This document shows positions 27,507-44,580 of a stretch of 64,000 bases of DNA, in pieces. Source of the stretch: an uncultured Colwellia sp. (GTDB lineage: Bacteria > Pseudomonadota > Gammaproteobacteria > Enterobacterales > Alteromonadaceae); the NCBI GenBank assembly GCA_913061475.1, contig CAJXUN010000003.1, positions 1-64,000 on the forward strand, given 5' to 3'. Every line of letters starts with the position of its first letter. Position 1 is the first letter of the stretch. The notes beneath the pieces were generated by a model. It was not told the origin of the DNA and searched no databases. It saw only the letters and a program-made list of their open reading frames with translations. The translations under genes were made by a program, and so were the position numbers.

Positions 27507-27612
27507 GGTGCTACCTTAATTTAACCTGTAATTAATTTTTTCGCCAAAATCCCGTTTGAGAAGTTGGCAATAAAGTCTGAAATATTGTAATGCGCTTAAC
27601 TATTGCTAAGCT

Positions 27613-28500
27613 CTAAAGCATCTGCTGACGAGCATAAAAAACCGCGCCCACTTCGGGAGAGTTTAATGGTGCTGATAAACTATTTTGCACCTCTTGCGCC
27701 AACCAAGGTAATAACCTCGGCGTTAAGCCACCAATGAGTGACAGGCGAGGTGGGCAACATTTTGATAATTGAGTTGCAACATTATCGATATAATTCGCGC
27801 CCTCTTTAACAATGGCTAGCGCCAAGGCATCACCTTGTTCAGCGGCATCAAAAACTAGATTAGCCATTCGAGCATAAAAAGCGGCAGGTTTACCTGCAAT
27901 AGCTTCCACAAGCTCAACACCGGTTTTGACATTAAGTAGGCTCAGCAACTTATCGTTGAGTGAGCTGTTGGCAATTAGGCCGTCTAATGATAATAAAACT
28001 TGTTTTGCTGCTTGCAAACCAAACCAAGCACCACTGCCTTTATCACCATGCGGAAAGCCATGAGCGCCAACAATGTAAGGCTCACCATCGACATAAGAAA
28101 AACCACAAGAGCCAGTGCCTGAAATAATCACCGCGCCATCTTCACCTTGATGCGCACCTAAACAGGCAATTAATAAATCGGTTGTTAAATGCATTGCCTT
28201 GAATGGATGCTGCCAGTTGTTCATTTGTTCAAACAGTACCGGTAGATTGACGCCCGCTAAACCAACACCCGCAACAATATTACCCAGTGATGATTCTGCA
28301 ATATTAGCATCAGCCAAAGCTAATTTAGCCGATGTAACAATTGAGTGAGTTGCCTGTTCAAAACCATGTAATGGATTGCCTGGGCCAGAAATCCCGGTTC
28401 CGAGGATTTTATTGTCAGCAGACATAACGATAGCCTTGCATTTACTACCACCTCCGTCGATACCTAAAAATATATTATTATTGTTATCACTACTTAGCAT
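27613..28500 (-). CDS. nagK: N-acetylglucosamine kinase (BadF/BadG ATPase family)
   Basis: 295 residues from ATG 28500, chosen for the GAGGTCGAG just upstream; the frame is open 33 bases further. ASKHA-fold motifs: FLGIDGGGSKCKAIV (phosphate 1), GAVIISGTGSCGF (phosphate 2) and LSLIGGLTPRL near the end. It phosphorylates imported GlcNAc. First gene of the nagK-nagB-II-nagA-nagP unit, with a NagR-type palindrome 78 bases upstream. Confidence 0.92.
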   Translation of the reverse strand: MLSSDNNNNIFLGIDGGGSKCKAIVMSADNKILGTGISGPGNPLHGFEQATHSIVTSAKLALADANIAESSLGNIVAGVGLAGVNLPVLFEQMNNWQHPFKAMHLTTDLLIACLGAHQGEDGAVIISGTGSCGFSYVDGEPYIVGAHGFPHGDKGSGAWFGLQAAKQVLLSLDGLIANSSLNDKLLSLLNVKTGVELVEAIAGKPAAFYARMANLVFDAAEQGDALALAIVKEGANYIDNVATQLSKCCPPRLSLIGGLTPRLLPWLAQEVQNSLSAPLNSPEVGAVFYARQQML

Positions 28501-28577
28501 CTCGACCTCGTGTCTGCACCACGTTATACCCACTATCGCTAGGGCTGAACTTTATCTGTATTAATCTTAACCACAAA

Positions 28578-28591
28578 TGACAGCGTTGTCA
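28578..28591. promoter_or_regulatory. NagR-type operator before nagK
   Basis: TGACAGCGTTGTCA, one mismatch to the palindrome TGACAGCGCTGTCA, flanked by AAA and TTT. It lies upstream of nagK and would control the four-gene catabolic unit. Confidence 0.75.
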
Positions 28592-28661: not shown

Positions 28662-31337
28662 TTAAGAATCATTCTCTATTATGCTAACTCTGGAGCTACG
28701 TTTACCATCAAAAGAACGGCTTCTTAGCTTAATATCGCCGCTAACGTTGACAGGATGTTGGTAAGTTTTCCATGCGCCATTCGCTACTTGATATTCAATA
28801 ACTAAACCAGGAAAGGCAACATTGGCTCTAAGCTCGCCATCAACTATTATCGCGCCAACATTCGGTAAGCGATAAAATACCTGATCAGCTTCTAACTTTG
28901 GTAACGCTTTCTGGCCAATAATATTGGCGAAAATACGCCACTGTTCATCGCGTAGTGCCGCACGTTTTTCATCAAATTGATTGCTATCTTGGCTATATTG
29001 AGCACCTTGATAATTATAAGGAACTGCCCAATCGGCTTTATGCCATGCCCTTTGTGCTAAGGCATATAAGCGTGGAAAAATTTTGTATTCTGCCATGCTA
29101 TCTGTGCGCGTATTCTCACTCCAAAGCTGACCTTGAATACCGTAGAAGGTTTTGCCTTTTGCTAACTTACTTTGACGGTCATCAGCACGGTATGGATTGT
29201 CTTCACGATCTAGCCAAATTTCGGCATGTGCGGGCAAGTTATCAGGCATAAACTGAAACACCTTTTCGGTATTGGTATGCCTTGAAGCCCAGTAATAACC
29301 ATGCTCTTTTGGATCCGCCTCATATGGGAAATCGAAATATAAAACATCGGGGCTAGAAATAACTATCTGCCAATCTCTATTCGCTAATTCATGCACTTTT
29401 TCATGACCGCCCCAAAACAATACGTCCCAAGCATTTGATTGCACAATAGCTGGCATACGCTCTTTTCGGGTATGCGACAAGCCATCGCTCCATCCTGCAG
29501 TTTCAATATCTAGATCTGACAAAATACCCGCAACGCGTTCAATAAAGTAAGCGCCTAGCTCGCTCATGTTTTTAACGCCATGGGTATTATTCGCCACAAA
29601 GGCCTTGCAGGCTGGAGAGTCGACCCAAGCTCCGGCAGTTTCATCAGCGCCAATATGATAGCGGGTTAATGGTTGACCGGCATCCGCATGTATTTGCTTT
29701 ACTTGCGTCATCACTTCGTGCACAAAGGCGTATGACGATTCGAGGCATACATTAATGGTGTTGTCATTATAAAACTGTACTGAAGAATATTCGGTTGTAT
29801 CTAATGGATCATACAAATTAAATTGTTGTGCTTTTGCTTCGTTCTCATCAATGGCATATTTATTCGTTCTTACGGCCATAGCTTTAATAGCGGCACGAGA
29901 GTGACCTGGCATATCTAGTGATGGGATCACCTGTATATGTCTAGCACTCGCCGCTTGTAATATTTCTTGATAATCAGCAACACTGTAATAACCATTAACA
30001 CTGGCGTTAGCATCAACTCCTGCGCCTAATTGTGGCTGTAAACACGCTTGGTCTGTTAAATCAAAGCAGCGGTTTGCACTGACTTGCGTTAGCTCCGGGA
30101 GTGATGGAATTTCAAGTCGCCAGCCCTCATCGTCTCCTAGATGTAAATGTAATTTATTCAGCTTATAAGCCGCCATTTGATCAAGCAAACGTAAGATAAA
30201 TGCTTTTGAGTGAAAATTTCGCGCGACATCCACCAGCAAACCGCGAAATTGGTAATGTGGCTCGTCATCAACGCTTAACTGTGCCACCTTAAGGTTATTT
30301 GGCATCACTAAGCTAGCAAGAGATTGCAAACCATTGAATACACCTGCACTGTCAACACCAATAATTTCTATCGCTTGTTTAGTGATATTTAATTGATAGC
30401 TGCCCAACATCTTGCTCGCATCAGGTACAACAGATAATTGAGTGGCAATACCAGTGACTGCTTGTTTAACGCCTAAACGCTGCAAACGAGCCAATGCAGC
30501 TTCAACTTCAACTAACTCAACATTTTTATAGCTAACATTAATACCTTGATCAAGATTTACGCGTTCTGAACCGCGGTTAACCTTGATGTATTTAGGCGTT
30601 GGAATAACAGTATCGCTAACGTCAATTAACTCGCTGCCTAGTTTAAGGTTTCTTTGATACAAGGCTGCGCTATTTAGCCATTGTGTTTTATCATTGGCAC
30701 TGCGTTTAAATTGTTTATTCGCATCTGTAAAAGGCACAACAAATGGCAAGGTTTCTAAGCCAGTTTCCGCGTCAATGCCTGCCATGGTACTTTTAATGAC
30801 TTGTGGCTTAGCACTTTGCCGACCACCTGTATTGGTGACACTGACAATGTAATTGGGAATCGCATCGGTTTCTGATAACGACCAAAACATCGCACGATAA
30901 ACAATGCGTTTGCTTTCATTTTCAGCAAAGCCTTTAAAGTTATCAGTTAGTGAGAGCTGATGTAAATCGCCATTAATGTGCTTAACACTAAACTCTGTAC
31001 TTTCAAAAGATTGAATAGGCGCAATTTGGCTAAAATGAATTTGCCAATCATTAGCTGCAATGGCTTGTTTCGCAGTTAGCGTCAACTCCACTTCAAAACA
31101 TTTACCATCGGCAACATCTCGCTGGCATTTATCGCTGGGGATATTCGTGACAACTCGGTGTTTAACCTCTAGATTGTTGGCAATATTGCTTATATCATTA
31201 GCATTCGCCGATTGTAGCAGCATGCTTTTATTGACTTGCTCTGTCGCACCTTCGGGCGTATTAGCTGGCATCTGCTGTTCACAGCCAGTTGCGACTAGTG
31301 CACTAGCCAGCATTAATACCATTGTTTTTCTCATCAT
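28662..31337 (-). CDS. hex: Surface/periplasmic beta-N-acetylhexosaminidase, GH20 lipoprotein
   Basis: About 891 residues from ATG 31337, which has GGAAGG six bases ahead; the frame is open nine codons further. Signal with lipobox LVATGC. Order: N-terminal carbohydrate-binding domain (CHB_HEX, about 50-200), GH20b domain (about 255-370), GH20 barrel (about 375-780) with the catalytic D-E pair in YHIGADETAG, then a C-terminal beta domain. It releases GlcNAc from chitooligosaccharides. Two NagR-type palindromes lie in the divergent promoter region shared with the sulfotransferase gene. Confidence 0.95.
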   Translation of the reverse strand: MMRKTMVLMLASALVATGCEQQMPANTPEGATEQVNKSMLLQSANANDISNIANNLEVKHRVVTNIPSDKCQRDVADGKCFEVELTLTAKQAIAANDWQIHFSQIAPIQSFESTEFSVKHINGDLHQLSLTDNFKGFAENESKRIVYRAMFWSLSETDAIPNYIVSVTNTGGRQSAKPQVIKSTMAGIDAETGLETLPFVVPFTDANKQFKRSANDKTQWLNSAALYQRNLKLGSELIDVSDTVIPTPKYIKVNRGSERVNLDQGINVSYKNVELVEVEAALARLQRLGVKQAVTGIATQLSVVPDASKMLGSYQLNITKQAIEIIGVDSAGVFNGLQSLASLVMPNNLKVAQLSVDDEPHYQFRGLLVDVARNFHSKAFILRLLDQMAAYKLNKLHLHLGDDEGWRLEIPSLPELTQVSANRCFDLTDQACLQPQLGAGVDANASVNGYYSVADYQEILQAASARHIQVIPSLDMPGHSRAAIKAMAVRTNKYAIDENEAKAQQFNLYDPLDTTEYSSVQFYNDNTINVCLESSYAFVHEVMTQVKQIHADAGQPLTRYHIGADETAGAWVDSPACKAFVANNTHGVKNMSELGAYFIERVAGILSDLDIETAGWSDGLSHTRKERMPAIVQSNAWDVLFWGGHEKVHELANRDWQIVISSPDVLYFDFPYEADPKEHGYYWASRHTNTEKVFQFMPDNLPAHAEIWLDREDNPYRADDRQSKLAKGKTFYGIQGQLWSENTRTDSMAEYKIFPRLYALAQRAWHKADWAVPYNYQGAQYSQDSNQFDEKRAALRDEQWRIFANIIGQKALPKLEADQVFYRLPNVGAIIVDGELRANVAFPGLVIEYQVANGAWKTYQHPVNVSGDIKLRSRSFDGKRSSRVSIIENDS

Positions 31338-31400
31338 ATGAAGCCTTCCCAGTGTAACGTTCATGTCAATTATATTTACTTATAGTGTTAACATCGCTCA

Positions 31401-31420
31401 TTTTGACAGCGCTGTCAAAA
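31401..31420. promoter_or_regulatory. NagR-type operator, hex-proximal
   Basis: TTTTGACAGCGCTGTCAAAA, a perfect 20-base palindrome, 64 bases ahead of the hex start. Confidence 0.82.
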
Positions 31421-31490: not shown

Positions 31491-31504
31491 TGACAGCGTT
31501 GTCA
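31491..31504. promoter_or_regulatory. NagR-type operator, sulfotransferase-proximal
   Basis: TGACAGCGTTGTCA, second palindrome of the hex/sulfotransferase interval, centred 91 bases from the first one and about 105 bases before the sulfotransferase start. Two sites could allow looping. Confidence 0.72.
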
Positions 31505-31610
31505 CTAACACTTATCCTAAAATCTGTTTTTGCAGATATTCACCACTTGCTCTGCAGGCATAGAATGCCCTAGATATTAACGACACCGACAAAGCTTAAT
31601 GGAGCTATTA

Positions 31611-32714
31611 ATGAGTTGTTCACAAAAACCAATATTTATTCACATTCCAAAAACCGGTGGAACAAGCATTAATTGCGTTATGAAAAATACACCATGGCAA
31701 ACAACATTAGATTTTCACTATCGGCACTTAGACTTTGACACTAAAACCTCGACCTGTGGCGACATTTTTGAATTAAAAAATAAAAATACTTTTGTCAAAG
31801 AGTTCATATTTATGATGCTGCGACATCCTATCGACAGGCTAATTTCTGAATACTATTACATTCGAAAAAATCACGAGTTCATGGGATTATTATCAACAGC
31901 GCCAAGCTGTTTTGAGGAGTACATCGATAATCCTCAAACAGCAAATTACATGTTAAAATTTCTTGATGGCCAGCAAATATATAATAACAATGAAATCACA
32001 CTACTTCGTGCGAAAGAAATTATAAACCTGATAGATGAACTTGATATTCATGTTGGTATTTTTGAAGAATACAACCGCTCATTGGCTTATTTTAGCGACG
32101 TTGGTGACTTTCAATGGCCCGAAAAATTAGCAATAAAACGGGCCACGCTTAATCGACCGACGATACAACAGGTTTCTCCAGCAATACAAGCTAAAATCAT
32201 TGCCAAAAACCAACTGGATATCATGCTGTATGAGCACTGTAGAGAGCGATTACTAGCACGAACACAGCAACTTGAAATTACAAAAATAAAACACACAGGT
32301 GGTAAATTAGATTTTGTTATCCCTTACACTTTATGGAATTGCATTCTCGATATAGAGTTGCAAAATCGAAGCTTCATTGAGGAAAACAAAACATTTTTTG
32401 TCACCTTAAATACTTATCTTCATAAAACTACAGACAATGGGAAGGACTACGCCAAAAACTGGTTAAAGCTCTTTAAAAAGTCTGTTGCTCTATATTTTAA
32501 AGGTAGTAAATTTGCCAAGCAAATTAAACAAATATCAAGGCGTTGCCCTATCGATGAGATTATCGAAATTGCAAAAATAATTGATTATGCATCTTCTAGC
32601 CCCTCATTAGGTTTAGATCTTGGTCAAGCAAAAATAAAGCTGCCATTAACATCGGTAATGGCAGACGCTATGACTGGCGCTGATCGAATAGAAAAAGGTA
32701 GGATACAATGGTAA
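31611..32714 (+). CDS. Sulfotransferase-family protein (Sulfotransfer_2-like)
   Basis: 367 residues from ATG 31611, which has GGAG six bases ahead; an in-frame ATG at 31599 lacks a ribosome site. PIFIHIPKTGGTSI (about 6-19) is the 5'-phosphosulfate loop of PAPS-dependent sulfotransferases, and FMMLRHPIDRLISEYYY (about 80-96) is the 3'-phosphate-binding Arg/Ser motif. The C-terminal 170 residues match no family I recognise. There is no signal peptide, so it should act in the cytosol, on an unknown acceptor. It is the only plus-strand gene between hex and the halogenase genes and shares the operator region with hex, so it may belong to the GlcNAc regulon. Confidence 0.8.
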   Translation: MSCSQKPIFIHIPKTGGTSINCVMKNTPWQTTLDFHYRHLDFDTKTSTCGDIFELKNKNTFVKEFIFMMLRHPIDRLISEYYYIRKNHEFMGLLSTAPSCFEEYIDNPQTANYMLKFLDGQQIYNNNEITLLRAKEIINLIDELDIHVGIFEEYNRSLAYFSDVGDFQWPEKLAIKRATLNRPTIQQVSPAIQAKIIAKNQLDIMLYEHCRERLLARTQQLEITKIKHTGGKLDFVIPYTLWNCILDIELQNRSFIEENKTFFVTLNTYLHKTTDNGKDYAKNWLKLFKKSVALYFKGSKFAKQIKQISRRCPIDEIIEIAKIIDYASSSPSLGLDLGQAKIKLPLTSVMADAMTGADRIEKGRIQW

Positions 32715-32720
32715 TAAGTA

Positions 32721-34268
32721 CTAAATTTTTTGTAGCCCATGTTCTTTAATCATATTAATTAAAGCGCGATGGTTTGGTAAGCTCGCTTGAATTTTTGCCT
32801 GCATCTTAAGGTTGTGTTGAAAGTGTTGTTGCGCAAGCTTGTCGTCATTGTATAAATAATGCTGTGCACTAACGTCGGTTTTAAAATTTAAGCCATATAA
32901 AACATACTGAATACTCGCGATTGGAAAAACGTCATATTGCGCATCAGTATCATTCAAGTGTGGGGGATGATGCTTCCACAACGCTAAACTTTCAATTAAT
33001 CGCTCAGACATAGACTCTGGCTGCATATTATCACGCCAATATACTTCATCAGTTCGCTCCGTTAATACATAATGCAATTTAAGAAAATCGACTATGGCTT
33101 GCCACTTTTTTGTGAAACCATGATTAAACTGCTTAGCGATAATTTCCATACTGTTAAAATCTGTCGGCAAACGCTCACTTATCCACTCAACAGAATTATC
33201 GACTAAGATCAATGCTGAGGCCTCAAGTGGCTCTAAAAAGCCAGCAGACAAACCAATGGCAACACAGTTTTTATGCCAAAATTTCTCTCGGTAACCTGAA
33301 TTAAAAGGTATTTTTCTAAAACTTAGGTTTTTAGCTTTTGGACCAATGTGTTGCTCTAATGTTCGCATCGCATTTTCATCACTGGTGTGATTACTCGAAT
33401 AAACATATCCCATACCTTTGCGACTGCTCAGGCCTATATCCCAAATCCAACCCGCTTCTTTACCTGTGGCAATAGTATGACAAGCAATATCTTCTTCGTC
33501 ATCATATGGAACTTGTGTGGCAATGGCAGTATCATTAAAGAGGATTTTGTTGGTGGGTAAAAATGGCACTTTCATGGTTTTGCCGATTAATAGTGCAGCA
33601 AAGCCCGAACAATCGACGAAGAAGTCTCCGGAAATTTTACCGCTTTTTTCACACACTACAAATTCAATATACTCATTGGCGTTTTGACCAACATCAATCA
33701 CTTTATCCACAACATGCTGCACGCCAAGTTCGACGGCTTTTTCTTGAATGAGCTTTGCCACTTTTACCGCATCAAAATGATAAGCATAATTGAGAATCGA
33801 TTGATATTCTGGTGTGACAATTTTTTTTGGCGCTAAACCAGCTTCACAAATTTGGTCTTGAAAATCAACAGCCTCAGCAAATCTGCCATATTGATGGCGA
33901 TTTTCATCTTTTTGCCAATAAGCCGTTAAATCAAATTTTCCATAACCACTAGGTACATTAAACGGGTGATAATAGAACTCTTTATCTGAATTCAATCGCC
34001 AACTAACAAATTTTGCCCCTTGTTTAAAAGTAGCATCACAACGCCTGATTAAATCGGTCTCAGAAATACCTATTGTACTCAGTGTTTTTCTCATGGTTGG
34101 AAATGTGCCTTCACCAACTCCTACCGTAGGAATATCGTCAGATTCAATCAAGGTAATAGACACGTCAGAGTTTCCACCACGACAATGCTGCTTTGCTAAC
34201 ATTGCTGCCGTGATCCAGCCTGCAGTGCCACCGCCAACAATAACGATTTTTTTAATTAATTTGCTCAT
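32721..34268 (-). CDS. Flavin-dependent tryptophan-halogenase-family protein (distal copy)
   Basis: 515 residues. FAD-binding IVGGGTAGW at 10-18; Lys82 in ATFKQGAKF is at the place of the catalytic Lys of PrnA; Glu349 in FLEPLEASAL corresponds to the PrnA active-site Glu, with Ala after it instead of Ser. The halogenase motif W-x-W-x-I-P reads W274-I-W-D-I-G here, so Pro is replaced by Gly. It is the last gene after TonB receptor, halogenase paralogue, SapC and cupin genes. The substrate is unknown; free Trp is only one option. Confidence 0.88.
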   Translation of the reverse strand: MSKLIKKIVIVGGGTAGWITAAMLAKQHCRGGNSDVSITLIESDDIPTVGVGEGTFPTMRKTLSTIGISETDLIRRCDATFKQGAKFVSWRLNSDKEFYYHPFNVPSGYGKFDLTAYWQKDENRHQYGRFAEAVDFQDQICEAGLAPKKIVTPEYQSILNYAYHFDAVKVAKLIQEKAVELGVQHVVDKVIDVGQNANEYIEFVVCEKSGKISGDFFVDCSGFAALLIGKTMKVPFLPTNKILFNDTAIATQVPYDDEEDIACHTIATGKEAGWIWDIGLSSRKGMGYVYSSNHTSDENAMRTLEQHIGPKAKNLSFRKIPFNSGYREKFWHKNCVAIGLSAGFLEPLEASALILVDNSVEWISERLPTDFNSMEIIAKQFNHGFTKKWQAIVDFLKLHYVLTERTDEVYWRDNMQPESMSERLIESLALWKHHPPHLNDTDAQYDVFPIASIQYVLYGLNFKTDVSAQHYLYNDDKLAQQHFQHNLKMQAKIQASLPNHRALINMIKEHGLQKI

Positions 34269-34325
34269 TTTACTTCCTCAAAAACAACTTTATTTTTTGC
34301 GATTAAACTGCAATGTGGGCAGATA

Positions 34326-35345
34326 CTATTTAAGTTGGCGAATGAGCCACTTTTTTAACGCTTTTTTGGTTTGATCATCCCAAGGAGCTAACATGCCAAG
34401 CGCAGCTTTGGGAATATGTTGATGCTTATCATTTTGATCTGAAAATACGTAATAATTAAAAAAGGCCTGCCACGCATTTTTATCTTGCTGGGGTAAGTCC
34501 CTAAAAGTCATCATCGCCATCATTAGGTTGTCGGCGGGCACTGGCTTTTGCTCACCAACAATTGAGCCACCAGCCCAATAATTTATCAATAAATTGACAC
34601 CACCCGTCGCCTGAACGTGATGCCACCATAATGCAGGGATATAAATCGCATCACCCGGCGCTAAATCGGCAGTGAGTGCTGCATTTAAGGCGACTTTAAA
34701 CTTAGGGAATTTTTCAAAATCTGGCCGAGCAAAATCAACTAAACTCACTGGTGCACCAGCGGGTGTGAAGTCCATTGGTCCGACATATAAGTTTTCAATT
34801 TCTTCAGGTGGAAATAAGGTGAAAGTGCGATTTCCGGTGACCACACAGGCAATATTTTCTGCGTCATCATGATGAGCAGACACCACGGAATTGTTACCTA
34901 GCCATATTCTAGGTTTTGATAATGAGGAGAATAACTCAAAGGGATTCTCCTCAATAAATTTAGGAAAATACTCTTCGATTAACGCACTTTGTAGCGCTAA
35001 GCTATCAGCACTTTCATTACTGCTATTATGAAGAACCTCAGCCAAAAACCCATCAAGGGAGCCTACTTCACGTTTGAAATTTAACGCTGTTAAGGTTTTA
35101 TTGTAAAAAAAACGCCCACGTTCTTCTGCCGGTAAACGGGCAAACTGTACATCGCCACCAACATACATTGACCGCAAATAATCCCAAAGCTCTTCAATTC
35201 CCATGTTAGCTTTGTTTATGATTGGCCAATCATTAACAAAGCCTCTTAATACAGCAGGCTCATGCAGTGGCGCTATTTCATTTTCAAACATGGCTTTATC
35301 GACATTATGCCAACAAGCAATACCTTTCAGGGCTCTTTTTGTCAT
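34326..35345 (-). CDS. Cupin-8/JmjC-like Fe(II)/2-oxoglutarate oxygenase-type protein
   Basis: 339 residues. The metal site is visible as H158-x-D160 in SAHHDDAENIACVVTG, with the distal His in IPALWWHHV, and the substrate-side Asn164 is conserved. Cupin_8 proteins are related to FIH-type hydroxylases acting on protein or peptide side chains, and this subgroup recurs beside TonB receptors and 'tryptophan halogenases' in marine and caulobacterial genomes. The target here is unknown. It sits between the SapC and distal halogenase genes, all minus strand. Confidence 0.85.
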   Translation of the reverse strand: MTKRALKGIACWHNVDKAMFENEIAPLHEPAVLRGFVNDWPIINKANMGIEELWDYLRSMYVGGDVQFARLPAEERGRFFYNKTLTALNFKREVGSLDGFLAEVLHNSSNESADSLALQSALIEEYFPKFIEENPFELFSSLSKPRIWLGNNSVVSAHHDDAENIACVVTGNRTFTLFPPEEIENLYVGPMDFTPAGAPVSLVDFARPDFEKFPKFKVALNAALTADLAPGDAIYIPALWWHHVQATGGVNLLINYWAGGSIVGEQKPVPADNLMMAMMTFRDLPQQDKNAWQAFFNYYVFSDQNDKHQHIPKAALGMLAPWDDQTKKALKKWLIRQLK

Positions 35346-35360
35346 ACTTTTTTGCTCGGT

Positions 35361-36077
35361 TTAGCTTGGTGTAAAATTAGCTTTTAGTTGTAACAAACGA
35401 TTAAATTGCCCTAAAGACGCCAAGTGTGCGTAAATAGCAGGTAAATATTTATGATGATAGAGCTGTAGTACAACGTCATCATCTAGCTCATTAAGTGCTT
35501 CTTCACTTATTTTATAGATACCGTTTATTTTTCGCTTTCCCTCTTCACCTAAGCTAAGTGTCAGCTCTGCTGGCTCAATCAAATTATGCTCAACCAAAAA
35601 GTCGACAAATACATCACTTGCGACGTCACGGGCTAAAATATCAGTGAGTAACTGAGTCACTTCAGTTGTCTCTGCAGAGGGTTGTCCGCCTTCATCAAAA
35701 ATTGCGAAACCTTCGCTATTATTGAGCAACTGACTATTTTCATCAATGCACAACATCATACTTGCTTCATCGGCACTTGCTGCACCTGCGGAGAAAGGAT
35801 AACGCTTAATATTTACTGGGACATAATTTGTTTTTACTTTACCGTCGGAAAAAACTACGTTTTCACCATTTTCAAGGCCCATTAATGCGACACTTTTAAA
35901 CTTGCCGGTTTCAGATTGTTTGACGAAGACAATCGGAAAATTAGTCGAAGCTGGTAAGAATTCAAATGCCATTAACGGCACCATATTTTGCTGAGCAATA
36001 TGGCTATAGCTACGATCTACTTTAACGCGTAAATCGCAATGTTTTACTGAATCTAAAGGAACTACTTTACTTGTCAT
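35361..36077 (-). CDS. SapC-family protein
   Basis: 238 residues matching the SapC family (PF07277): HIAQQNMVPLMAFEFLPASTNFPIVFVK near the N-terminus, then VALMGLENGENVVF, YVPVNIKRYPFSA and CIDENSQLL. There is no signal peptide or membrane helix. The family is named after a Campylobacter S-layer-associated protein, but its biochemical role is unknown; in proteobacteria it is usually linked to TonB receptors and halogenase-like genes, as here. Confidence 0.9.
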   Translation of the reverse strand: MTSKVVPLDSVKHCDLRVKVDRSYSHIAQQNMVPLMAFEFLPASTNFPIVFVKQSETGKFKSVALMGLENGENVVFSDGKVKTNYVPVNIKRYPFSAGAASADEASMMLCIDENSQLLNNSEGFAIFDEGGQPSAETTEVTQLLTDILARDVASDVFVDFLVEHNLIEPAELTLSLGEEGKRKINGIYKISEEALNELDDDVVLQLYHHKYLPAIYAHLASLGQFNRLLQLKANFTPS

Positions 36078-36136
36078 GATTAATACCTCGTTGCTCGACC
36101 TACGCGCAATGAATATAGGTGAGTTCTTTATAATTG

Positions 36137-37687
36137 TTATATTTTGTTGATGCCATATTGCTTAATATTATTGATTAATTTTCGATGAGACTGCAGTTGC
36201 TTACTCATTTTTTTAGCGTGTTGACTTAATTGATTAGCAGCAATATCCGCTTGATTAGCATAAGGAAAACGGCTAGTTATATCATTAATTTGTGTTTTGA
36301 AGTCCATGCCATAAAGCACATATTGATAATTTTCAAGTTGGAAAACTTCATATTTACTGGCAAAATCAGATGCGCTAGGAAGGTTATATTGCCAATATGC
36401 CAATTTTTCTAATAGGCTATCAGGAGCGGTACTCGGATCCGTATTATCGAGCCAAAATTTATGGTCAGTACGCTTGCTTAGATAATAATGTAGCTTAATA
36501 AAATCTATTACGCGATCCCATGCATAACGGCTGATACTATTGAATGACTTTTCAGCATAAGCCATACCATCAAAGTTTGTCGGCAGCTTTTCTGCAAGTA
36601 ACTTAGCGGTCGCTTCTACGGTCAGTAATGCAGTCGCCTCGAGTGGTTCAACAAAACCTGCAGCAAGACCTATCGCGACACAGTTTTTATGCCAAAACTT
36701 TTCTCGATAACCTATCTTCATCTGAATTTTTCGTACCGATAAGCCAGCACATTCTTCACCAATATATTGCCTTAAGATCTGTTCTGCACGCTCGTCAGAA
36801 GTATGACTTGATGAGTAGACATAGCCAACACCACGACGCTGAGTTAAGCCGATATCCCATGTCCAGCCTGCTTCGTGCGCAGTAGAAATGGTAAAAGGCG
36901 GAATTTCTTTGTCGGAGTCGCTATAAGGTACTTGCAACGCTAAAGCTCGGTCAACTAACAGTTGATCGCCTTTGTCGACAAATTTAACTTTCAAGGTTTC
37001 ACTGATCAGTCGAGCAGAAAAACCAGAGCAATCAACATAAAAATCGGCAGAGAGTTGACGACCATCTTGGCAAAAAAGCGTATGAATACTGCCATCATCA
37101 GCAAGCGAAACATCAGCTATCGTGCCAAAAACATGTTTGATCCCTAATGACTTTTGGCCATGTTCTGCAAGGAAGCTAGCAAATTTACCAGCATCCAAAT
37201 GGTAAGCATAAGCCAACGAACTTTGATAAGGTCTATCCGTCATGCGTTTAGGCCCCAAATTTAATTCGCAAATTGCTGTTTGGAAGCTAACGTATTCACT
37301 ATAACTATGTTTTTTTTCAGCCATTAACCAGTAAGGTGTTAAATCAAATCCCGGAGTATGAGGATAGTTAAATAAGTGATGATAGGAGTGCCGCTGATTT
37401 GTAGTCGGTGCATGTAACCAGTCGTTAAATTGAATAGATTGTTTAAACGTTACATCACAAGACTTTATAAAATCAGCTTCATCTACACCGATCAATTGCA
37501 AAGTTTCGCGCATGGTTGGCACAGTACCTTCACCAACGCCTATAGGCGGAATATCGGCTGATTCGATTAACGTAATACTAACGTCAGGTGACGCTGAGCA
37601 ATTGAGCTGCTTCGCTAAAATACAGGCACTAAGCCAGCCAGCAGTGCCGCCACCAACAACTACGATATTTTTAATCGTTGTACTCAT
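36137..37687 (-). CDS. Flavin-dependent tryptophan-halogenase-family protein (receptor-proximal copy)
   Basis: 516 residues from ATG 37687 (GGA five bases ahead); the frame is open seven codons further. It has VVVGGGTAGW for FAD, a Lys in VTFKQSIQF at the catalytic-Lys position, and FVEPLEATAL for the active-site Glu. The W-x-W-x-I-P motif reads GWTWDIG, with Gly in place of Pro, the same change as in the paralogue at 32721-34268. The two proteins share the whole layout and are old duplicates. First gene after the receptor, from which a hairpin terminator separates it. Confidence 0.88.
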   Translation of the reverse strand: MSTTIKNIVVVGGGTAGWLSACILAKQLNCSASPDVSITLIESADIPPIGVGEGTVPTMRETLQLIGVDEADFIKSCDVTFKQSIQFNDWLHAPTTNQRHSYHHLFNYPHTPGFDLTPYWLMAEKKHSYSEYVSFQTAICELNLGPKRMTDRPYQSSLAYAYHLDAGKFASFLAEHGQKSLGIKHVFGTIADVSLADDGSIHTLFCQDGRQLSADFYVDCSGFSARLISETLKVKFVDKGDQLLVDRALALQVPYSDSDKEIPPFTISTAHEAGWTWDIGLTQRRGVGYVYSSSHTSDERAEQILRQYIGEECAGLSVRKIQMKIGYREKFWHKNCVAIGLAAGFVEPLEATALLTVEATAKLLAEKLPTNFDGMAYAEKSFNSISRYAWDRVIDFIKLHYYLSKRTDHKFWLDNTDPSTAPDSLLEKLAYWQYNLPSASDFASKYEVFQLENYQYVLYGMDFKTQINDITSRFPYANQADIAANQLSQHAKKMSKQLQSHRKLINNIKQYGINKI

Positions 37688-37767
37688 ATCAATCCAATGC
37701 ACGCTCATGCGCGGTAATAATTTTTATAGTTTATTAAGATGCGATATTTACAGGGGTGCTGTAAAGG

Positions 37768-37795
37768 TAAAAAGTCGAGCCTAAGCTCGACTTTT
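37768..37795 (-). terminator. Terminator or attenuator between the TonB receptor and halogenase genes
   Basis: In the minus sense AAAAAGTCGAGC, loop TTAG, GCTCGACTTTTT. It is 20 bases after the receptor stop. Partial read-through would make the receptor much more abundant than the halogenase/SapC/cupin proteins. Confidence 0.85.
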
Positions 37796-37816
37796 TCATT
37801 ACATTAACATTTTAAC

Positions 37817-40483
37817 TTAGAAGTTAAGACGTACACCGGCAACAAAACGACGTCCGTTAGAGTATATTGACATAACACGTGCCTTATCAATGTTGTACTC
37901 AACAATTTCTTCATCTGTAATATTTACAGCTTCAAGCGTAAATGTTGTGTACTCATTGAAATTCCAGTTAGCACTGGCATCCCATTGACCAAATTCGTCG
38001 TTATAAAGCTCATCACCGTTAAAATGTTGACCTTTATACCATTCACTTCGGTAGTTATACATTACACGTGCACCAAAAGTATCATTTTCATAATATGCTG
38101 ATAAATTTAGCATATTCTGAGAAGTCCCTTCAATTAAACCTGAGCCAACTTTAGCTGGGTCACGCTCTTCATCAGTGTCAGTGTTAGTATAAGTATAGTT
38201 AGCTGTAAAACCATAGCCGCCAAAGTCGTGTTGGACACTAAACTCTAAGCCATCAATTAAGCCGCCAAAACCATTACCAGGCTGAGTAAACTCAACTGGA
38301 ACAAAAACACCTTCTTGTTCGTAAAATCGGTCTTGAACATCAACTGTACTAGTGCGCAGAGTATTAATGTCTTTAACAAAGTAAGCTGCAGAGAACATTG
38401 ACGCTTCGTCGTAGTACCACTCATATGACATATCAAATTGGTTAGCAATAGTCGGTCTTAGTTGCGGATTCCCACGTGTACCGGTATTAGTCTGAACAGT
38501 TGATAATGAGCCAAATGATTCATTACCTGAAATGTCTTGCCAATTTTGACGTGCCATTACCCGTGCTGCTCCAATACGAAGAATCTGGTCTTCAGCAAGG
38601 TCAAAGGCAATATTGAAACTCGGTAAGAATTCAGCATAGTCGTTGTCCTGACTTACCCACTCTAAGCGTGAAGGGTTTAACCACTCACCATTAAGAGTTT
38701 TCAAACCGGATGAATCTTGTGAGAACTCGTAACCCGATGATGTTTGCTCTGTTGATACGTAACGAACACCGACATTACCGCGGAAGCCTTCACCAGAAAA
38801 ATCACCTTGAACATACAACGAAAGGATATCTTCTTCTACTTCCCAGATTTCACCTAAATTGTCATGAATGGCATAAGCGGCACCTGGACCAAAAGCCATG
38901 CTTTCCATAACGCTACGGTTGTGTGCTAATTGATTGGTAATATTGCCATTGGCGGCAACATCAACATTCACACTACCTAATGCATTTAAATCACAATCAG
39001 CAAGGGTTGGGCAGTTTGCAAAAATGCTTTGCATGGTGCCATTCCAATCGGAATTAGGATCTGTAGCTTGAGTAGCATGCCAACTATAAGCATGGCGCCC
39101 TTGCGTACGTTTTGCAGAGCGATATTTTACACCTGTTTTAACCGCGCTAAAAACACCAAATTCAACCGGTAGTTCAAAGTCAAGTTGAGCAAAGTCTTCT
39201 TCATCAGTAGCAGGTTTAGCGCCACCCCATATCCAACCTGCAGTGAAGTTAGAACCATCAGATGGGTCAACACCAAAATCTACAGAAGGAGTACCCGTAA
39301 GATCATAATCATATCCCGCAGTCATTGCGTTATATTCCCATGAAGTTTCACGTAATGTGCCACCTTCAGCTTTAGTTGTTCCTATTTCAAAATTCACTGT
39401 GAAGGCGTCCGCTTCATAGTCAACGTCTAAATGAAATTGCTCTGTTTCTGTTTTTGAAACACGGTTAATAAAGTTATATGCTGCGCGTCCATCATTGTCA
39501 GAGGTTGCTAAAATTGCGCCATTTTTAACGTTAGTCGCATTAGCTATCGCTGTAGCACGATCTCCCGTCGGGAAATTAAGTAAATTAGCATTTTGATTGT
39601 CAACATCCATTTCTGACGATAGGGCATTAAAAGTTAACAATAACTTATCTGATGGTGCGTATTGCAATGTCGCAAAGTACGTTGAACGTTCACGATCTTG
39701 TAGGAAACGCGGTGCACCTATGTTACGTGGAATACTGTAGTCATCATCATCTGACTCATCCCATGCTAACACTTCAAGACCTTGGCGCTCTAACGTCCGG
39801 TCTTGTTGCACAGCAGAAATCATAAAACCAAAGGTTTCATCTTCAGTTTTCCAAGAATACATACCCGCTATTTGAGGATCAGTTTCTTCTGATTGATCCG
39901 AGTACTGTGCTTCGAGTGAAAGGCTAACCGTGTTTGCATCCATCTCTAAAGGACGACGAGTATTTAGAATAACTGTACCGCCTAAAGAACCTTCATCAAG
40001 TGAGGCTGTTGGTGATTTATGAACCTCTAGGCCTTTAACGATTACAGATGGCAGCATGGTGTAGTTAAAACTACGATTAGCTTCATCTAAAATAAACCAG
40101 TCAGCCGTGCCAACCGTTTGGCCATTTAATAATGTCCGGTTATATTTAGGACCAGCACCACGAATGGTAATTTTTTCACCTTCACCAAACTCACGACTTA
40201 CAGCAACACCCGTAATACGTGAAAGTGTTTCAGCAACGTTTTTGTCAGGGAATTTGCCGATATCTTCTGCGGTAATAACATCAACAACACTGTCAGAAAA
40301 GCGCTTAGCATTAATGTTTTCTTTCAAAGAGCCGCGAATACCAGTAACTTGAATTCGTTCTATTTCTTTCTCGGCTTTAGCAGCATTATCTTCTGCGGCC
40401 ATAGCAAATGGTGAAGCACCACCTGCAAGGACCATAGCGATACTACTCGCCAATACGCCTTTTTTAAATTTTTTAGATGACAT
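37817..40483 (-). CDS. TonB-dependent outer-membrane receptor, GlcNAc/chitooligosaccharide regulon
   Basis: About 888 residues from ATG 40483 with AGGGA ahead; a GTG six codons earlier is less likely. Signal peptide (VLASSIAMVLAG ... FAMA), a TonB-box-like stretch near IERIQVTG, plug domain (SVVDVITAEDIGKFPDKNVAETLSRITGV, then TIRGAGPKYNRTLLNGQ), and a 22-strand barrel ending in RRFVAGVRLNF with terminal Phe. It is of the TIGR01782 TonB-Xanth-Caul type common for carbohydrate uptake. Two NagR-type palindromes 54-89 bases upstream point to chitooligosaccharide import. SusD is absent, as usual in proteobacteria. Confidence 0.93.
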   Translation of the reverse strand: MSSKKFKKGVLASSIAMVLAGGASPFAMAAEDNAAKAEKEIERIQVTGIRGSLKENINAKRFSDSVVDVITAEDIGKFPDKNVAETLSRITGVAVSREFGEGEKITIRGAGPKYNRTLLNGQTVGTADWFILDEANRSFNYTMLPSVIVKGLEVHKSPTASLDEGSLGGTVILNTRRPLEMDANTVSLSLEAQYSDQSEETDPQIAGMYSWKTEDETFGFMISAVQQDRTLERQGLEVLAWDESDDDDYSIPRNIGAPRFLQDRERSTYFATLQYAPSDKLLLTFNALSSEMDVDNQNANLLNFPTGDRATAIANATNVKNGAILATSDNDGRAAYNFINRVSKTETEQFHLDVDYEADAFTVNFEIGTTKAEGGTLRETSWEYNAMTAGYDYDLTGTPSVDFGVDPSDGSNFTAGWIWGGAKPATDEEDFAQLDFELPVEFGVFSAVKTGVKYRSAKRTQGRHAYSWHATQATDPNSDWNGTMQSIFANCPTLADCDLNALGSVNVDVAANGNITNQLAHNRSVMESMAFGPGAAYAIHDNLGEIWEVEEDILSLYVQGDFSGEGFRGNVGVRYVSTEQTSSGYEFSQDSSGLKTLNGEWLNPSRLEWVSQDNDYAEFLPSFNIAFDLAEDQILRIGAARVMARQNWQDISGNESFGSLSTVQTNTGTRGNPQLRPTIANQFDMSYEWYYDEASMFSAAYFVKDINTLRTSTVDVQDRFYEQEGVFVPVEFTQPGNGFGGLIDGLEFSVQHDFGGYGFTANYTYTNTDTDEERDPAKVGSGLIEGTSQNMLNLSAYYENDTFGARVMYNYRSEWYKGQHFNGDELYNDEFGQWDASANWNFNEYTTFTLEAVNITDEEIVEYNIDKARVMSIYSNGRRFVAGVRLNF

Positions 40484-40536: not shown

Positions 40537-40550
40537 AGACAGCGCTGTCT
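40537..40550. promoter_or_regulatory. NagR-type operator, receptor-proximal
   Basis: AGACAGCGCTGTCT, a perfect palindrome with A/T replaced at both ends, 54 bases before the receptor ATG. Confidence 0.72.
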
Positions 40551-40558
40551 TTTATTGA

Positions 40559-40572
40559 TGACAACGCTGTCA
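40559..40572. promoter_or_regulatory. NagR-type operator, receptor-distal
   Basis: TGACAACGCTGTCA, 22 bases centre to centre from the neighbouring site, so two dimers would sit on nearly the same face, two helical turns apart. Confidence 0.72.
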
Positions 40573-40759: not shown

Positions 40760-42400
40760 TTATTGTGCATTAAGATAATAATTCATCAACTGTTTTGTTG
40801 AACAATCATGGGTTACTGCCACGGAACCTGTTTCTAATTCCTGCTCAATATTGGCTGCTAAGCCTTTACCAAGTTCAACACCCCACTGATCAAATGAACA
40901 TATTTGAAGAATAATGCCCTGAACAAAAATTTTATGTTCGTAGAGCGCAATAAGTTGTCCTAAGCTGTGTGGGTCAATACGCTTAAGTAAAAGGGTATTA
41001 GTCGGCCTGTTACCTTTATGAACTTTATGTGGAGCAACTTTATCGATATAGTCTTGGGTGCGTCCTTTCGCTTTTAGGTCCTCACGTACTTGTTGTTCAT
41101 TGACTCCAGTCATCAGTGCTTGTGTTTGAGCAAAAAAGTTCGCCATTAAGGTTTTATGATGGCCTTTAACCGGCGTTACACTCGCTACTGAGCCAATAAA
41201 ATCTGCTGGTACAACATTATTACTTTGATGTAAATATTGGTAAAATGCATGTTGGCCATTAATACCAAGCTCTCCCCAAATTGACGGCACTGTTGCGTAA
41301 CCAATTTCTTTGCCCTCCCAGTTAACAGACTTGCCATTACTTTCCATTTCAGCTTGCTGTAAATAAGCGGCTAACATGTGCAACGTCTGATCGTAAGGTA
41401 AAATTGCTTGAGACTTTGCCCCTAAAAAAGTGGTATTCCAAACACTGAGTAACGCCATGATCACGGGCATATTATGCTCAAGGGTTGCAGATTTAAAATG
41501 GTTATCCATGACGTTTGCGCCGGCCAAAAGTTGCTCAAACTTATCAAAACCTAAGTCAAGCGCCACAGCTAAACCTATTGCAGACCAAAGTGAAAAACGG
41601 CCACCTACCCAATCCCACATAGTAAAAATGTTCTCTTGTTTGATACCCAGAGACATGGCATTTTCCACATTAGCGGTAACGGCAACAAAATGTTTTGCGA
41701 CTGACTTTTCATCAAAAGAAGCTGCGGTTAGCCAGTTAATTGCTGTTTTGGCATTGATCATGGTTTCCGTGGTGGTAAAGGTTTTACTGGAAACGATAAA
41801 GAGTACTTTTTCAGGCTCAAGCGGTCGCAGTATTTCAGCAATTTGGGCACCATCGACATTTGAAACATAATGCACATTGACACTATGGTCACTGTATTGT
41901 TTCAACGCCTCGGTGACCATTTGCGGACCTAAATTTGAACCACCAACGCCAATATTAACAATATCGGTAATGCGCTTTCCTGAGTAGCCTAGCCATTGCC
42001 CTTGCCTGACTTTTTCAACGAATTCGGACATTTTTTCTAATTGCTGATTGACCTGCTGACTGATGTTTTCGCCATTAACCTGTAACTTTTCACTTACAGA
42101 ACCTCGCAATGCAGTATGCAGTACAGCTCGATCTTCAGTACTATTAATTTTCTCTCCGGCAAACATTTTACTCCGCCAATTTTCTAAATCACATTCTTTT
42201 GCTAATGCAACTAGAGCCTGCATCGTCTCGCTATCAATAAGGTTTTTGGAATAATCGAGCAACATTTTTGGTAGCTCAATAGAGAATTTCGCAAAGCGAT
42301 TTTCGTCGGCTGAGAATAAATCATTCATGTGTTGAGATTTTTTCTCTTCAGCCAATTTGACTAAATTTTTCCAGCTAGCTAGCGTTTGTCGATCCAACAT
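40760..42400 (-). CDS. pgi: Glucose-6-phosphate isomerase
   Basis: 546 residues (E. coli 549). Family signatures are intact: VGGSNLGPQM, SSKTFTTTET, DWVGGRFSLWSAIG and GINGQHAFYQYLHQ, with the final KGxxA block GVELGKGLAANIEQEL. It interconverts glucose-6-P and fructose-6-P. A NagR-type palindrome 46-59 bases before the start ties it to GlcNAc catabolism, whose end product is fructose-6-P, so it would feed glucose-6-P needs when growing on chitin sugars. Divergent from nagR. Confidence 0.97.
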   Translation of the reverse strand: MLDRQTLASWKNLVKLAEEKKSQHMNDLFSADENRFAKFSIELPKMLLDYSKNLIDSETMQALVALAKECDLENWRSKMFAGEKINSTEDRAVLHTALRGSVSEKLQVNGENISQQVNQQLEKMSEFVEKVRQGQWLGYSGKRITDIVNIGVGGSNLGPQMVTEALKQYSDHSVNVHYVSNVDGAQIAEILRPLEPEKVLFIVSSKTFTTTETMINAKTAINWLTAASFDEKSVAKHFVAVTANVENAMSLGIKQENIFTMWDWVGGRFSLWSAIGLAVALDLGFDKFEQLLAGANVMDNHFKSATLEHNMPVIMALLSVWNTTFLGAKSQAILPYDQTLHMLAAYLQQAEMESNGKSVNWEGKEIGYATVPSIWGELGINGQHAFYQYLHQSNNVVPADFIGSVASVTPVKGHHKTLMANFFAQTQALMTGVNEQQVREDLKAKGRTQDYIDKVAPHKVHKGNRPTNTLLLKRIDPHSLGQLIALYEHKIFVQGIILQICSFDQWGVELGKGLAANIEQELETGSVAVTHDCSTKQLMNYYLNAQ

Positions 42401-42445: not shown

Positions 42446-42459
42446 TGACAGCGCTGTCA
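42446..42459. promoter_or_regulatory. NagR-type operator between pgi and nagR
   Basis: TGACAGCGCTGTCA, a perfect palindrome flanked by AAA and ATTTT. It is close to pgi and about 140 bases from the regulator start, so it could serve both divergent genes. Confidence 0.82.
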
Positions 42460-42598: not shown

Positions 42599-43633
42599 TT
42601 GTCAATGAAAGCAACGATCAACAATGTCGCTGAACAAGCAGGTGTGTCAATAAAAACGGTTTCTCGTGTGATGAATAACGAACCATCAGTACGCCAACTC
42701 ACTCGAGATAAAGTCATGGCCGTCGTTGAAGCGCTCAATTATCAACCCAACTTAGCTGCGCGAAACTTAGCGGGTACCAAGTCTTTCAGCATTGCTTTTA
42801 TTTATGATAACCCAAATGCCTATTACATCATCGATATGCAAAATGGTATTTTATCCGCATGTAAAAAACAAGGCTTTGAGTTATTGATCCACCCCTGCGA
42901 TGCTAAAGCTGATAGCTTGTTAACTGAAGTCACAAAAATGGTGAAACATTCACGTATAGCCGGTTTAGTGCTAACACCGCCATTTTCTGAGCAACCAGAA
43001 TTTGTTCAACAAATGAAAGATCTTGATATACAAGTCGTTCGAATTGTGTCCGGTGATATTGCCCCTGACGATATTGCCCCTTGTATTATGGTTAACGACT
43101 ACGCAGCAGCGCAAAGCATTACCCAGCACTTAATCGATTTAGGTCACCAAGATATTGGCTTTATCGCCGGAGAGGCTGAGCATAGATCTACGGTTGAGCG
43201 ACTGAAAGGTTATAAACAAACACTAGACGCCAACAAGATAACATTAAATGAAAATTTGATTATAAAAGGCGAGTATTCTTTTGAGTCTGGGGTTAATGGC
43301 GCTAAGCAGCTCATGTCTTTAACAAAAAAACCTAGTGCGATTTTTTCATGTAATGATGAAATTGCCGCGGGCGCATTATTTGCCGCACGTTTAATGGGTA
43401 TTTCAATTCCAGAGCAACTATCGATTACCGGCTTTGAAAATAGCCCTTTTTCACGTCAAACTTGGCCTACGTTAACCACGGCAGACCAACCAAACCAACA
43501 AATTGCCGAAGATGCCGCCAATTTACTGATTGCTTGTGCTCGAAAGCAAAATATAAACCTTGAAGCTAAGCAATACACCCCGCAACTTGTTATCCGAGAC
43601 TCTACGGGAAAAGCGAGTAAATTCTCTGATTAA
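42599..43633 (+). CDS. nagR: LacI-family repressor NagR
   Basis: 344 residues: helix-turn-helix ATINNVAEQAGVSIKTVSRVMNN at the N-terminus, hinge YQPNLAARNLAG, then a periplasmic-binding-like sensor domain (about 60-335). AAGG lies six bases from a TTG at 42599 but 12 bases from the ATG at 42605, so a TTG start is possible. It is the only LacI-type regulator in the locus and the palindrome TGACAGCGCTGTCA (central CG, LacI style) occurs six times around it. LacI-type NagR proteins of Alteromonadales respond to GlcNAc-6-P or a similar intermediate. Confidence 0.9.
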   Translation: MSMKATINNVAEQAGVSIKTVSRVMNNEPSVRQLTRDKVMAVVEALNYQPNLAARNLAGTKSFSIAFIYDNPNAYYIIDMQNGILSACKKQGFELLIHPCDAKADSLLTEVTKMVKHSRIAGLVLTPPFSEQPEFVQQMKDLDIQVVRIVSGDIAPDDIAPCIMVNDYAAAQSITQHLIDLGHQDIGFIAGEAEHRSTVERLKGYKQTLDANKITLNENLIIKGEYSFESGVNGAKQLMSLTKKPSAIFSCNDEIAAGALFAARLMGISIPEQLSITGFENSPFSRQTWPTLTTADQPNQQIAEDAANLLIACARKQNINLEAKQYTPQLVIRDSTGKASKFSD

Positions 43634-44264: not shown

Positions 44265-44518
44265 ACAAGCGTTCACCACTATCAATTAAAATAACTAACG
44301 AAAAAATACTGTTTATTCTGCCGCGCAGGCCTCTGGTAAGCCCTACGACTACAATTGTGCTGCATAATACAAATTAATCTAGTCCTACCGCAACTTATTC
44401 AACTCAAGAACATGCTCCGACTAATTTTTGCCGTTAAAAGCCCAACAACCATGCGTAAAATATCAACAGATAGAAATTTACCATTGGCACTAACATACAC
44501 TAAATTAAACTGGACAGT

Positions 44519-44552
44519 CTAGTTTGATTAAACTAGATTCATTAGTCTAGTT
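44519..44552. promoter_or_regulatory. Putative TetR-family operator
   Basis: CTAGTTT-GATT-AAACTAG is a perfect inverted repeat (44519-44536), and a third half-site CTAGTT follows at 44547-44552. It lies 29-62 bases before the efflux start codon, covering the likely promoter. The surrounding TetR-efflux intergenic stretch (44265-44580) shows no gene. Confidence 0.6.
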
Positions 44553-44580
44553 AATAGTTTTTTATTTTAAGGTCAGTTCA

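Follow-up and report, generated by a model that had tools for sequence, protein, structure and literature searches.

A candidate N-acetylglucosamine-regulated TonB receptor operon with a variable tailoring cassette, and the receptor precursor as its tentative target

Organization of the receptor-enzyme locus

We analysed a 64,000-nucleotide stretch (hereafter the window) of contig CAJXUN010000003.1 from an uncultured Colwellia sp., in which the gene for a TonB-dependent receptor is followed by a cassette for two flavoenzymes of the Trp_halogenase family, a SapC family protein and a Cupin_8 protein. The unit occupies 32721-40483 on the minus strand and reads, 5' to 3' on that strand, receptor, flavoenzyme 1, SapC, Cupin_8 and flavoenzyme 2. 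Gene calls and family searches recovered all the genes and motifs that an initial annotation, made from the letters of this DNA, had placed here.

37817..40483, minus strand, TonB-dependent receptor of the TIGR01782 type with plug motif TADWF (649 bits against a cut-off of 310)
36137..37708, minus strand, flavoenzyme 1, Trp_halogenase family, G-type (WTWDIG; PF04820, 436.8 bits)
35361..36077, minus strand, SapC family protein (229.2 bits)
34326..35345, minus strand, Cupin_8/JmjC-type protein, a predicted FIH-like Fe(II)/2-oxoglutarate (2OG) oxygenase (219.7 bits)
32721..34268, minus strand, flavoenzyme 2, Trp_halogenase family, G-type (WIWDIG; PF04820, 409.7 bits)

The receptor gene probably starts at the ATG at 40483, which is preceded by AAGGGA. 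On inspection, the receptor has a signal peptide at its N-terminus and none is visible in flavoenzyme 1, SapC, the cupin or flavoenzyme 2. Therefore, these four proteins are probably cytosolic.

Both flavoenzymes match PF04820 over the whole domain and carry the flavin adenine dinucleotide (FAD) motif GxGxxG in the form GGGTAGW. The catalytic Lys (in FKQ) and Glu (in EPLEA) are kept in both, as K89 and E357 in flavoenzyme 1. The motif WxWxIP is replaced by WTWDIG in flavoenzyme 1 and by WIWDIG in flavoenzyme 2, and the sequences thus bear out the initial claim that FAD motif, Lys and Glu are retained together with WxWxIG. According to the excerpted text of PMC8269204, tryptophan halogenases have a YYHGLPPYS-like C-terminal motif for tryptophan binding. 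Read by eye, the window's enzymes have YVLYGMDF and YVLYGLNF and lack this motif for free tryptophan.

Two types of flavoenzyme

For comparison we used 79 SapC loci and 60 further receptor-chosen stretches from the same family, the window's genome included, with one more locus, L036; one of the 60 stretches, L204, has no such receptor. A scan with a flavoenzyme alignment added named loci, the best 80 of at least 593.

WxWxIG is no oddity of the window. A tree of 224 flavoenzymes contains a G-type clade (n = 150, support 1.0), whose sixth motif position is G in 123 members (82%), D in 10, A in 9, P in 5 and another residue in 3, and a P-type clade (n = 64, support 0.998) with P throughout; 10 members fall in neither. 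BrvH and Xcc4156 stand outside the tree and were placed by bit score. Both window flavoenzymes belong to the G-type clade and none to the P-type (BrvH/Xcc4156) clade. Every member of either clade keeps the Lys and the Glu (100%), and the clades are told apart by G61/A, Q90/L, F176/Y, W439/F and M468/Q (G-type/P-type). The G-types also have GEGT replacing GEAT and a Q following the catalytic Lys.

The two types occupy different places in the operon. Directly after the receptor, the flavoenzyme is from the G clade in 98 of 111 cases, from the P clade in 12 and from neither in 1. After a flavoenzyme-SapC-cupin series it is from the P clade in 38 of 39, and the sole exception is the window's flavoenzyme 2. 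A G-clade enzyme at the end of a flavoenzyme-SapC-cupin-flavoenzyme set (1 of 39) is an unusual feature of the window.

The closest solved relatives of the window enzymes are 9lu2 (L11-2; 390-510 bits) and 2pyx (448-479 bits), and 9ltb is a further solved 'tryptophan halogenase' relative of the G-types. WxWxIG is also found in 2pyx, which shares WIWDIG with flavoenzyme 2, whereas 9ltb and 9lu2 have Ala for Gly; 2pyx is cited, in the part of PMC7336383 available, as an unnamed halogenase from unpublished work. The P-type partner in L050 has its best matches, at 463-624 bits, in Xcc4156 (6y1w), 9luq and BrvH (6frl), all of PF04820. BrvH, which the initial annotation had placed in a context of this kind, has WxWxIP (PMC5945002, in excerpt) and is closest by bit score to the P-type flavoenzyme, a type that the window lacks.

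Linkage of the cassette to sugar receptors

To count linkage free of the selection of loci through SapC or the flavoenzyme, 8 genomes were searched with family models and flavoenzymes above 300 bits were counted, leaving out seven matches below 100 bits. Scoring of receptor candidates covered 43 of 52 in one of these genomes and 43 of 55 in another. As many as 47 of the 54 full-length Trp_halogenase genes lie on the same strand within 6 kb downstream of a TIGR01782 receptor. One of the other seven is in another orientation, and six are farther from a receptor. Random placement would put about 3% within 6 kb on either side of a receptor. Conversely, 32 of the 74 above-cut-off receptors in these genomes have a linked flavoenzyme.

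In the 80 named loci, which come from many proteobacteria, a receptor is found within three genes of the flavoenzyme in 65. The remainder comprise 12 loci with no receptor by the models, although in one of them, L245, a receptor is present in the gene string, 2 with only SapC or the cupin near, and 1 at a contig edge. The initial annotation had named Xanthomonas, Caulobacter and Brevundimonas-type bacteria as hosts of similar sets. Recurrence with TonB receptors is supported for Caulobacter and also for sphingomonads, Rhodanobacter/Dyella-type bacteria and many gammaproteobacteria; the 80 loci include no record named Xanthomonas or Brevundimonas. The link also survives the search for unlinked clusters, which had been proposed as its refutation, with 6 of 54 flavoenzymes unlinked, though SapC often stands alone.

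Two variants of this arrangement were seen. In L295, L297 and L301, which are among the 12 loci with no receptor by the models, flavoenzymes with the G-type motif lie beside Alginate_exp-like proteins (below the cut-off in L297) and not beside TonB receptors. In L246, L250, L255, L257, L260, L274, L275, L277 and L287, which are sphingomonad and Caulobacter-type loci, a cupin and SapC are divergent from a receptor and a G-type enzyme, and no P-type enzyme was seen within the stretch.

N-acetylglucosamine-type operators

The operator consensus TGACAGCGCTGTCA, which we take to be NagR-like, has seven matches with at most 3 mismatches in the window, where 1.87 are expected and none of 100 shuffles reaches seven. 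Six of these, found by the consensus scan, and the neighbouring genes, assigned by family search, are as follows.

40559..40572, unstranded, NagR-like operator 1, TGACAACGCTGTCA, 1 mismatch, before the receptor
40537..40550, unstranded, NagR-like operator 2, AGACAGCGCTGTCT, 2 mismatches, before the receptor
42446..42459, unstranded, NagR-like operator, 0 mismatches, between pgi and the regulator
31404..31417, unstranded, NagR-like operator, 0 mismatches, before the GH20 gene
31491..31504, unstranded, NagR-like operator, 1 mismatch
28578..28591, unstranded, NagR-like operator, 1 mismatch, before the kinase gene
42599..43633, plus strand, LacI-family regulator, NagR-like by context only
40760..42400, minus strand, phosphoglucose isomerase (PGI) gene
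28662..31364, minus strand, GH20 beta-hexosaminidase
25324..28533, minus strand, genes for an amidohydrolase, a SIS-domain protein and a BadF-type kinase

The seventh match, at 7536 with 3 mismatches, looks like chance. The operators at 40537 and 40559 are 54 and 76 bases upstream of the receptor start. The amidohydrolase, the SIS protein and the BadF-type kinase are presumably NagA-like, NagB-II-like and NagK-like, respectively. The regulator scores below every specific NCBIfam cut-off, and its name NagR therefore comes from context. With operators before the receptor and the catabolic genes and a LacI regulator nearby, the locus appears to form a NagR regulon.

Control by N-acetylglucosamine (GlcNAc), as initially proposed from the operators before the receptor, is supported by these neighbours and is kept in relatives. 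We defined WF/WY-plug receptors as frames matching [DGQ]W[FY] within residues 60-260, and counted operators that deviate at no more than 2 positions and lie no farther than 350 bases upstream of the receptor. A NagR-like site precedes 27 of 31 WF/WY-plug receptors versus 13 of 166 other receptors, and the paired-operator arrangement before the receptor also occurs in relatives. The WF/WY plug motif is a mark of NagR-type receptors and not of cassette presence. In the 27 NagR-type loci the slot usually lies between the regulator or pgi and a gene of GH20 size, the Pfam assignment coming from the window's gene only.

Terminator hairpin and expression architecture

Two terminator-like elements flank the cassette.

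37769..37796, minus strand, terminator-like hairpin of 12 pairs in the gap between receptor and first enzyme (folding)
32640..32664, minus strand, weak terminator-like site after flavoenzyme 2 (terminator scan)

The 81-nucleotide stretch holding the first hairpin folds at -22.5 kcal/mol (z = -4.25), and 1 of 200 shuffles is as good. The terminator scan did not list this hairpin; it returned 10 terminator-like sites where 7.1 are expected, so single matches carry little weight. Of 133 gaps between a receptor and its first enzyme, 130 could be evaluated; 86 of these contain a hairpin with a T-run, where mononucleotide shuffles predict 6.4. The median gap is 106 bases from receptor to first enzyme and 15 bases from enzyme to enzyme. 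This conserved hairpin architecture fits an abundant receptor and scarce enzymes, and as such it supports the earlier suggestion that a terminator before the second gene might set unequal stoichiometry. Promoter-like sites are at chance (22 against 22.5 expected), and therefore we claim no internal promoter.

Cassette variation at a fixed slot

The cassettes behind the 27 NagR-type receptors range from one gene to four. The sets seen are a cupin alone, a cupin with SapC, one flavoenzyme alone, a flavoenzyme with SapC, and SapC with two flavoenzymes, with or without a DUF6445 or Sulfotransfer_3-like gene. Single-gene examples are L151 (cupin) and L265 and L296 (flavoenzyme); the window, with four genes, is at the other end. 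Such variable sets at one slot argue against one fixed multi-step pathway. Since most of the 27 loci were picked via SapC or a flavoenzyme, they say little on how frequently the slot is empty. The cassette families are not tied to one sugar either, as they occur behind receptors with and without NagR-like sites; one that lacks such a site is in L050, where the cassette lies beside GH3, GH1 and sugar-MFS genes (Pfam).

The window cassette itself looks like a mosaic, because the nearest relatives of its two flavoenzymes differ from each other and from those of the receptor and cupin. In the tree, flavoenzyme 1 is nearest to the nag-locus enzymes of L053 and L087, and flavoenzyme 2 to the G-types of L055, L270 and L090, which are receptor-flavoenzyme-SapC loci with or without a cupin. 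The window receptor and the window cupin share the same two nearest relatives, L151 and L042, where a cupin is present with no flavoenzyme beside it. Tree distances are large (0.3-1.5), and the SapC neighbour is uninformative. The three receptors with TADWF (window, L151 and L042) are close relatives, the other two being the nearest to the window receptor. A cupin is present in 3 of 3 TADWF loci versus 0 of 24 others among the 27, but the three cases form one clade and so count as one event.

Cupin, SapC and DUF6445

The metal triad HxD...H of the Cupin_8 protein (H158, D160 and H242 in the window) is intact in 67 of 67 sequences, and Arg173 is invariant in the same 67. The best solved relatives, FIH and JMJD5 (E 1e-20 and 1e-13), have the HxD...H triad in common with the cupin. 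The window cupin differs from FIH in having Arg173 in place of Lys, in what we take to be the position of the 2OG-binding Lys of FIH, and thus lacks a 2OG-binding Lys. Arg can replace Lys for this role in other 2OG oxygenases.

The model of SapC is confident (predicted local distance difference test, pLDDT, 94.9) and finds no significant match in the PDB (best E 0.28) or among viral structures (best E 0.13). A role as a peptide-recognition (RRE-like) domain was considered and rejected, as there was no significant structural match and the low-ranking winged-helix matches are meaningless at such scores. SapC also occurs in other settings. In L071 it lies beside the mraZ-mraW start of the division/cell-wall cluster (Pfam), and the stand-alone SapC genes of L084, L097, L104, L110 and L115 show a gene-size pattern similar to this locus. 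Among the phylum-wide matches, those in G265, G225, G237, G257, G253 and G316 place SapC within much longer frames (~550-660 residues; in G257 also 482), which are possible fusions and might point to its partner.

DUF6445 (PF20043) is a frequent extra cassette gene elsewhere and is absent from the window's cassette. It was located at L050:12905-13609 (named by Pfam), at L299:12863-13555 and in 19 other loci, and a model built from the L050 gene gives 20 matches in the 80 named loci. PHxD is invariant in the family and is followed by a His, and an Arg is also conserved (HxD...H...R). Its structural model (pLDDT 94.9) matches human OGFOD1 and an algal prolyl 4-hydroxylase at E 1e-4 to 9e-4, with probability 1.0 and TM-scores of 0.3-0.5. 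DUF6445 is thus predicted to have a prolyl-hydroxylase-like Fe(II)/2OG oxygenase fold.

Search for an acceptor residue or leader in the receptor

The best aromatic cupin-linked alignment column that the window shares is W474 (0.87 versus 0.22), in a loop that aligns poorly. As a cupin acceptor it was set aside: W474 is absent in L055, L086, L090, L093 and L095, whereas several receptors without a cupin carry it. A Phe before the hydrophobic stretch of the signal peptide is found in 0.82 of 78 cassette-linked and 0.33 of 42 unlinked receptors, and among linked receptors the signal peptides resemble one another more closely than the identity of the mature proteins would suggest, although these pairs are not independent. 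The signal peptide was set aside as a leader, since the Phe motif occurs in cassette-free sisters such as L183 and was unseen in the Sphingomonas and Caulobacter receptors inspected.

Discussion

Similar cassettes lie behind many sugar receptors, which suggests that the target of the enzymes should be sought at the receptor. Our tentative reading, held with less than even confidence, is that GlcNAc controls the receptor operon, that its cassette is a tailoring one, and that the receptor precursor is the most likely target of the enzymes. Three points favour the precursor: the receptors that the enzymes follow may have or lack a NagR-like site, the enzymes can occur singly at the same slot, and some members of their families act on side chains. 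QhpG, GoxB and LodB, which we take to be flavoenzymes that modify residues while protein cofactors mature, give weak matches to the window flavoenzymes in short stretches. MibH, likened by description alone, is a flavin halogenase acting on a lanthipeptide (PMC8269204, in excerpt); the likeness of all four lies in action on peptide or protein residues. In addition, the partner families found elsewhere, DUF6445 and Sulfotransfer_3-like, are side-chain modifiers by kind.

In such an operon, some transcripts would read through the hairpin, leaving the enzymes scarcer than the receptor. The cytosolic enzymes would act on something common to these receptors, most likely amino-acid side chains that the precursor carries before it is exported. 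The flavoenzymes might halogenate or hydroxylate an aromatic residue of the receptor, and the FIH-like oxygenase might hydroxylate Asn, Asp or His, with SapC as a possible adaptor or chaperone. The effect may be to adjust binding or gating, or to change resistance to phage or colicins. More broadly, though this is a doubtful extension, a widespread modular proteobacterial system might oxidatively edit the side chains of the cell's TonB sugar receptors while these are still in the cytosol, by halogenation, hydroxylation and perhaps sulfation. BrvH/Xcc4156-type and G-type flavoenzymes, FIH-like cupins, DUF6445 and SapC would be its exchangeable parts, and the receptor would be the missing natural substrate.

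Several observations weigh against the receptor precursor as target. Modifying a precursor in the cytosol ahead of export would be unusual. No column of the mature-receptor alignment sharply separates cassette-linked from unlinked receptors, and W474 fails because the five loci that lack it have the receptor-flavoenzyme-SapC-cupin set and because cupin-free receptors have it. Among 80 distinct receptors sampled from nine genomes, a cassette follows directly in 35 and is missing in 37, with 8 at an edge; modification is therefore no general requirement. Of the 79 family loci, 22 have SapC by itself and one further locus gave no SapC call; across the phylum, none of the 30 best-scoring SapC loci has a partner match in its flanks, which reach up to 1.5 kb. 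The SapC fold gives no clue to function in the PDB and viral comparisons. Finally, co-inheritance of the operon alone could explain the match between receptor and cupin.

A small aromatic compound, co-imported or linked to the sugar, ranks behind the receptor precursor as target, and we regard this explanation as somewhat unlikely. In this case the enzymes would modify, for example, an indole, a phenol on chitin or glucan fragments, or a free signal, imported via the receptor or produced in the presence of the sugar. Small molecules are the substrates of flavin halogenases in secondary metabolism, and the cytosolic location of the enzymes fits. BrvH, a P-type relative that has been purified and crystallised, shows slow in vitro bromination of free indole but does not brominate tryptophan, and the authors name no natural substrate for it (PMC5945002, in excerpt). 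However, the same families are found whether or not the receptor has a NagR-like site and next to glycosidases of different kinds, and single-enzyme cassettes occur at the same slot. Also, no recurring export gene was noticed by gene size, a point for which no dedicated test was made.

The Pro to Gly exchange in WxWxIP raises a less probable explanation, that the G-types are flavin monooxygenases or sensors oxidising a protein or a metabolite, and that only the P-types halogenate. WxWxIP has been suggested to keep the enzymes from monooxygenase action (PMC5945002, in excerpt). The predominant glycine at the sixth position, GEGT for GEAT and the Q after Lys would fit this, as would the matches to QhpG, GoxB and LodB. 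Those NCBIfam matches, however, are weak and far below cut-off, at 19-30 bits against cut-offs of 240-400 and over short stretches only, and the full conservation of Lys and Glu in both clades speaks against it. That enzymes and receptor have no common target, and that stress or housekeeping genes merely ride in sugar loci by co-inheritance, is improbable: SapC is often alone, six of the 54 flavoenzyme genes lie away from any TIGR01782 receptor and cassettes differ between close relatives (L103 is of the window's genus), but 47 of 54 genes are linked in the same orientation, the linkage recurs in many proteobacterial groups and the architecture is conserved.

Annotation of such genes near TonB receptors is commonplace, and two Xanthomonas GlcNAc studies reportedly name genes of such a cluster. 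The kind of cluster is already annotated and unexplained, and the window is a variant with two G-types. Its NagR (LacI) regulon with a TonB receptor resembles systems of Xanthomonas and Shewanella. The NagR regulons of two Xanthomonas species include a GlcNAc kinase and TonB-dependent receptors (PMC5343134), and omp-Nag and nagR of Shewanella have been tabulated (PMC2996990); the excerpts of both articles mention no flavoenzyme, SapC or cupin genes, and 'halogenase' and 'SapC' occur 0 times in that of PMC2996990. A text search of PMC1790865 and PMC7142613 found no halogenase-type terms. The excerpt of PMC5945002 mentions a second halogenase gene beside brvH and contains no word starting with TonB or SapC. 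The present analysis ties the family quantitatively to sugar receptors, splits it by operon position and shows that its cassettes vary at a fixed regulatory slot. The question of the BrvH substrate thereby becomes testable on one outer-membrane protein, which should be GlcNAc-inducible, and DUF6445 gains a predicted fold and a likely chemistry.

Neighbouring genes and a third flavoenzyme

One further gene borders the cassette.

31599..32714, plus strand, Sulfotransfer_2 protein, convergent with the cassette (family search)

It ends 6 bases from flavoenzyme 2, and its position is the slot of the Sulfotransfer_3-like gene in five related nag loci. That gene is present in 5 of the 27 nag loci, and its TPR match in L087 is below the Pfam cut-off. 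On the other side, 43656-48809 adjoins the nag locus and, by sequence reading alone, holds genes for a TetR-like regulator, a membrane-fusion protein and an RND-type efflux pump. The window's own genome has a third flavoenzyme at C9:76509-80811 (L036), which follows another TIGR01782 receptor, has the motif WQWRIP, scores 620 bits with PF04820 and is adjoined by a protein of 1449 residues.

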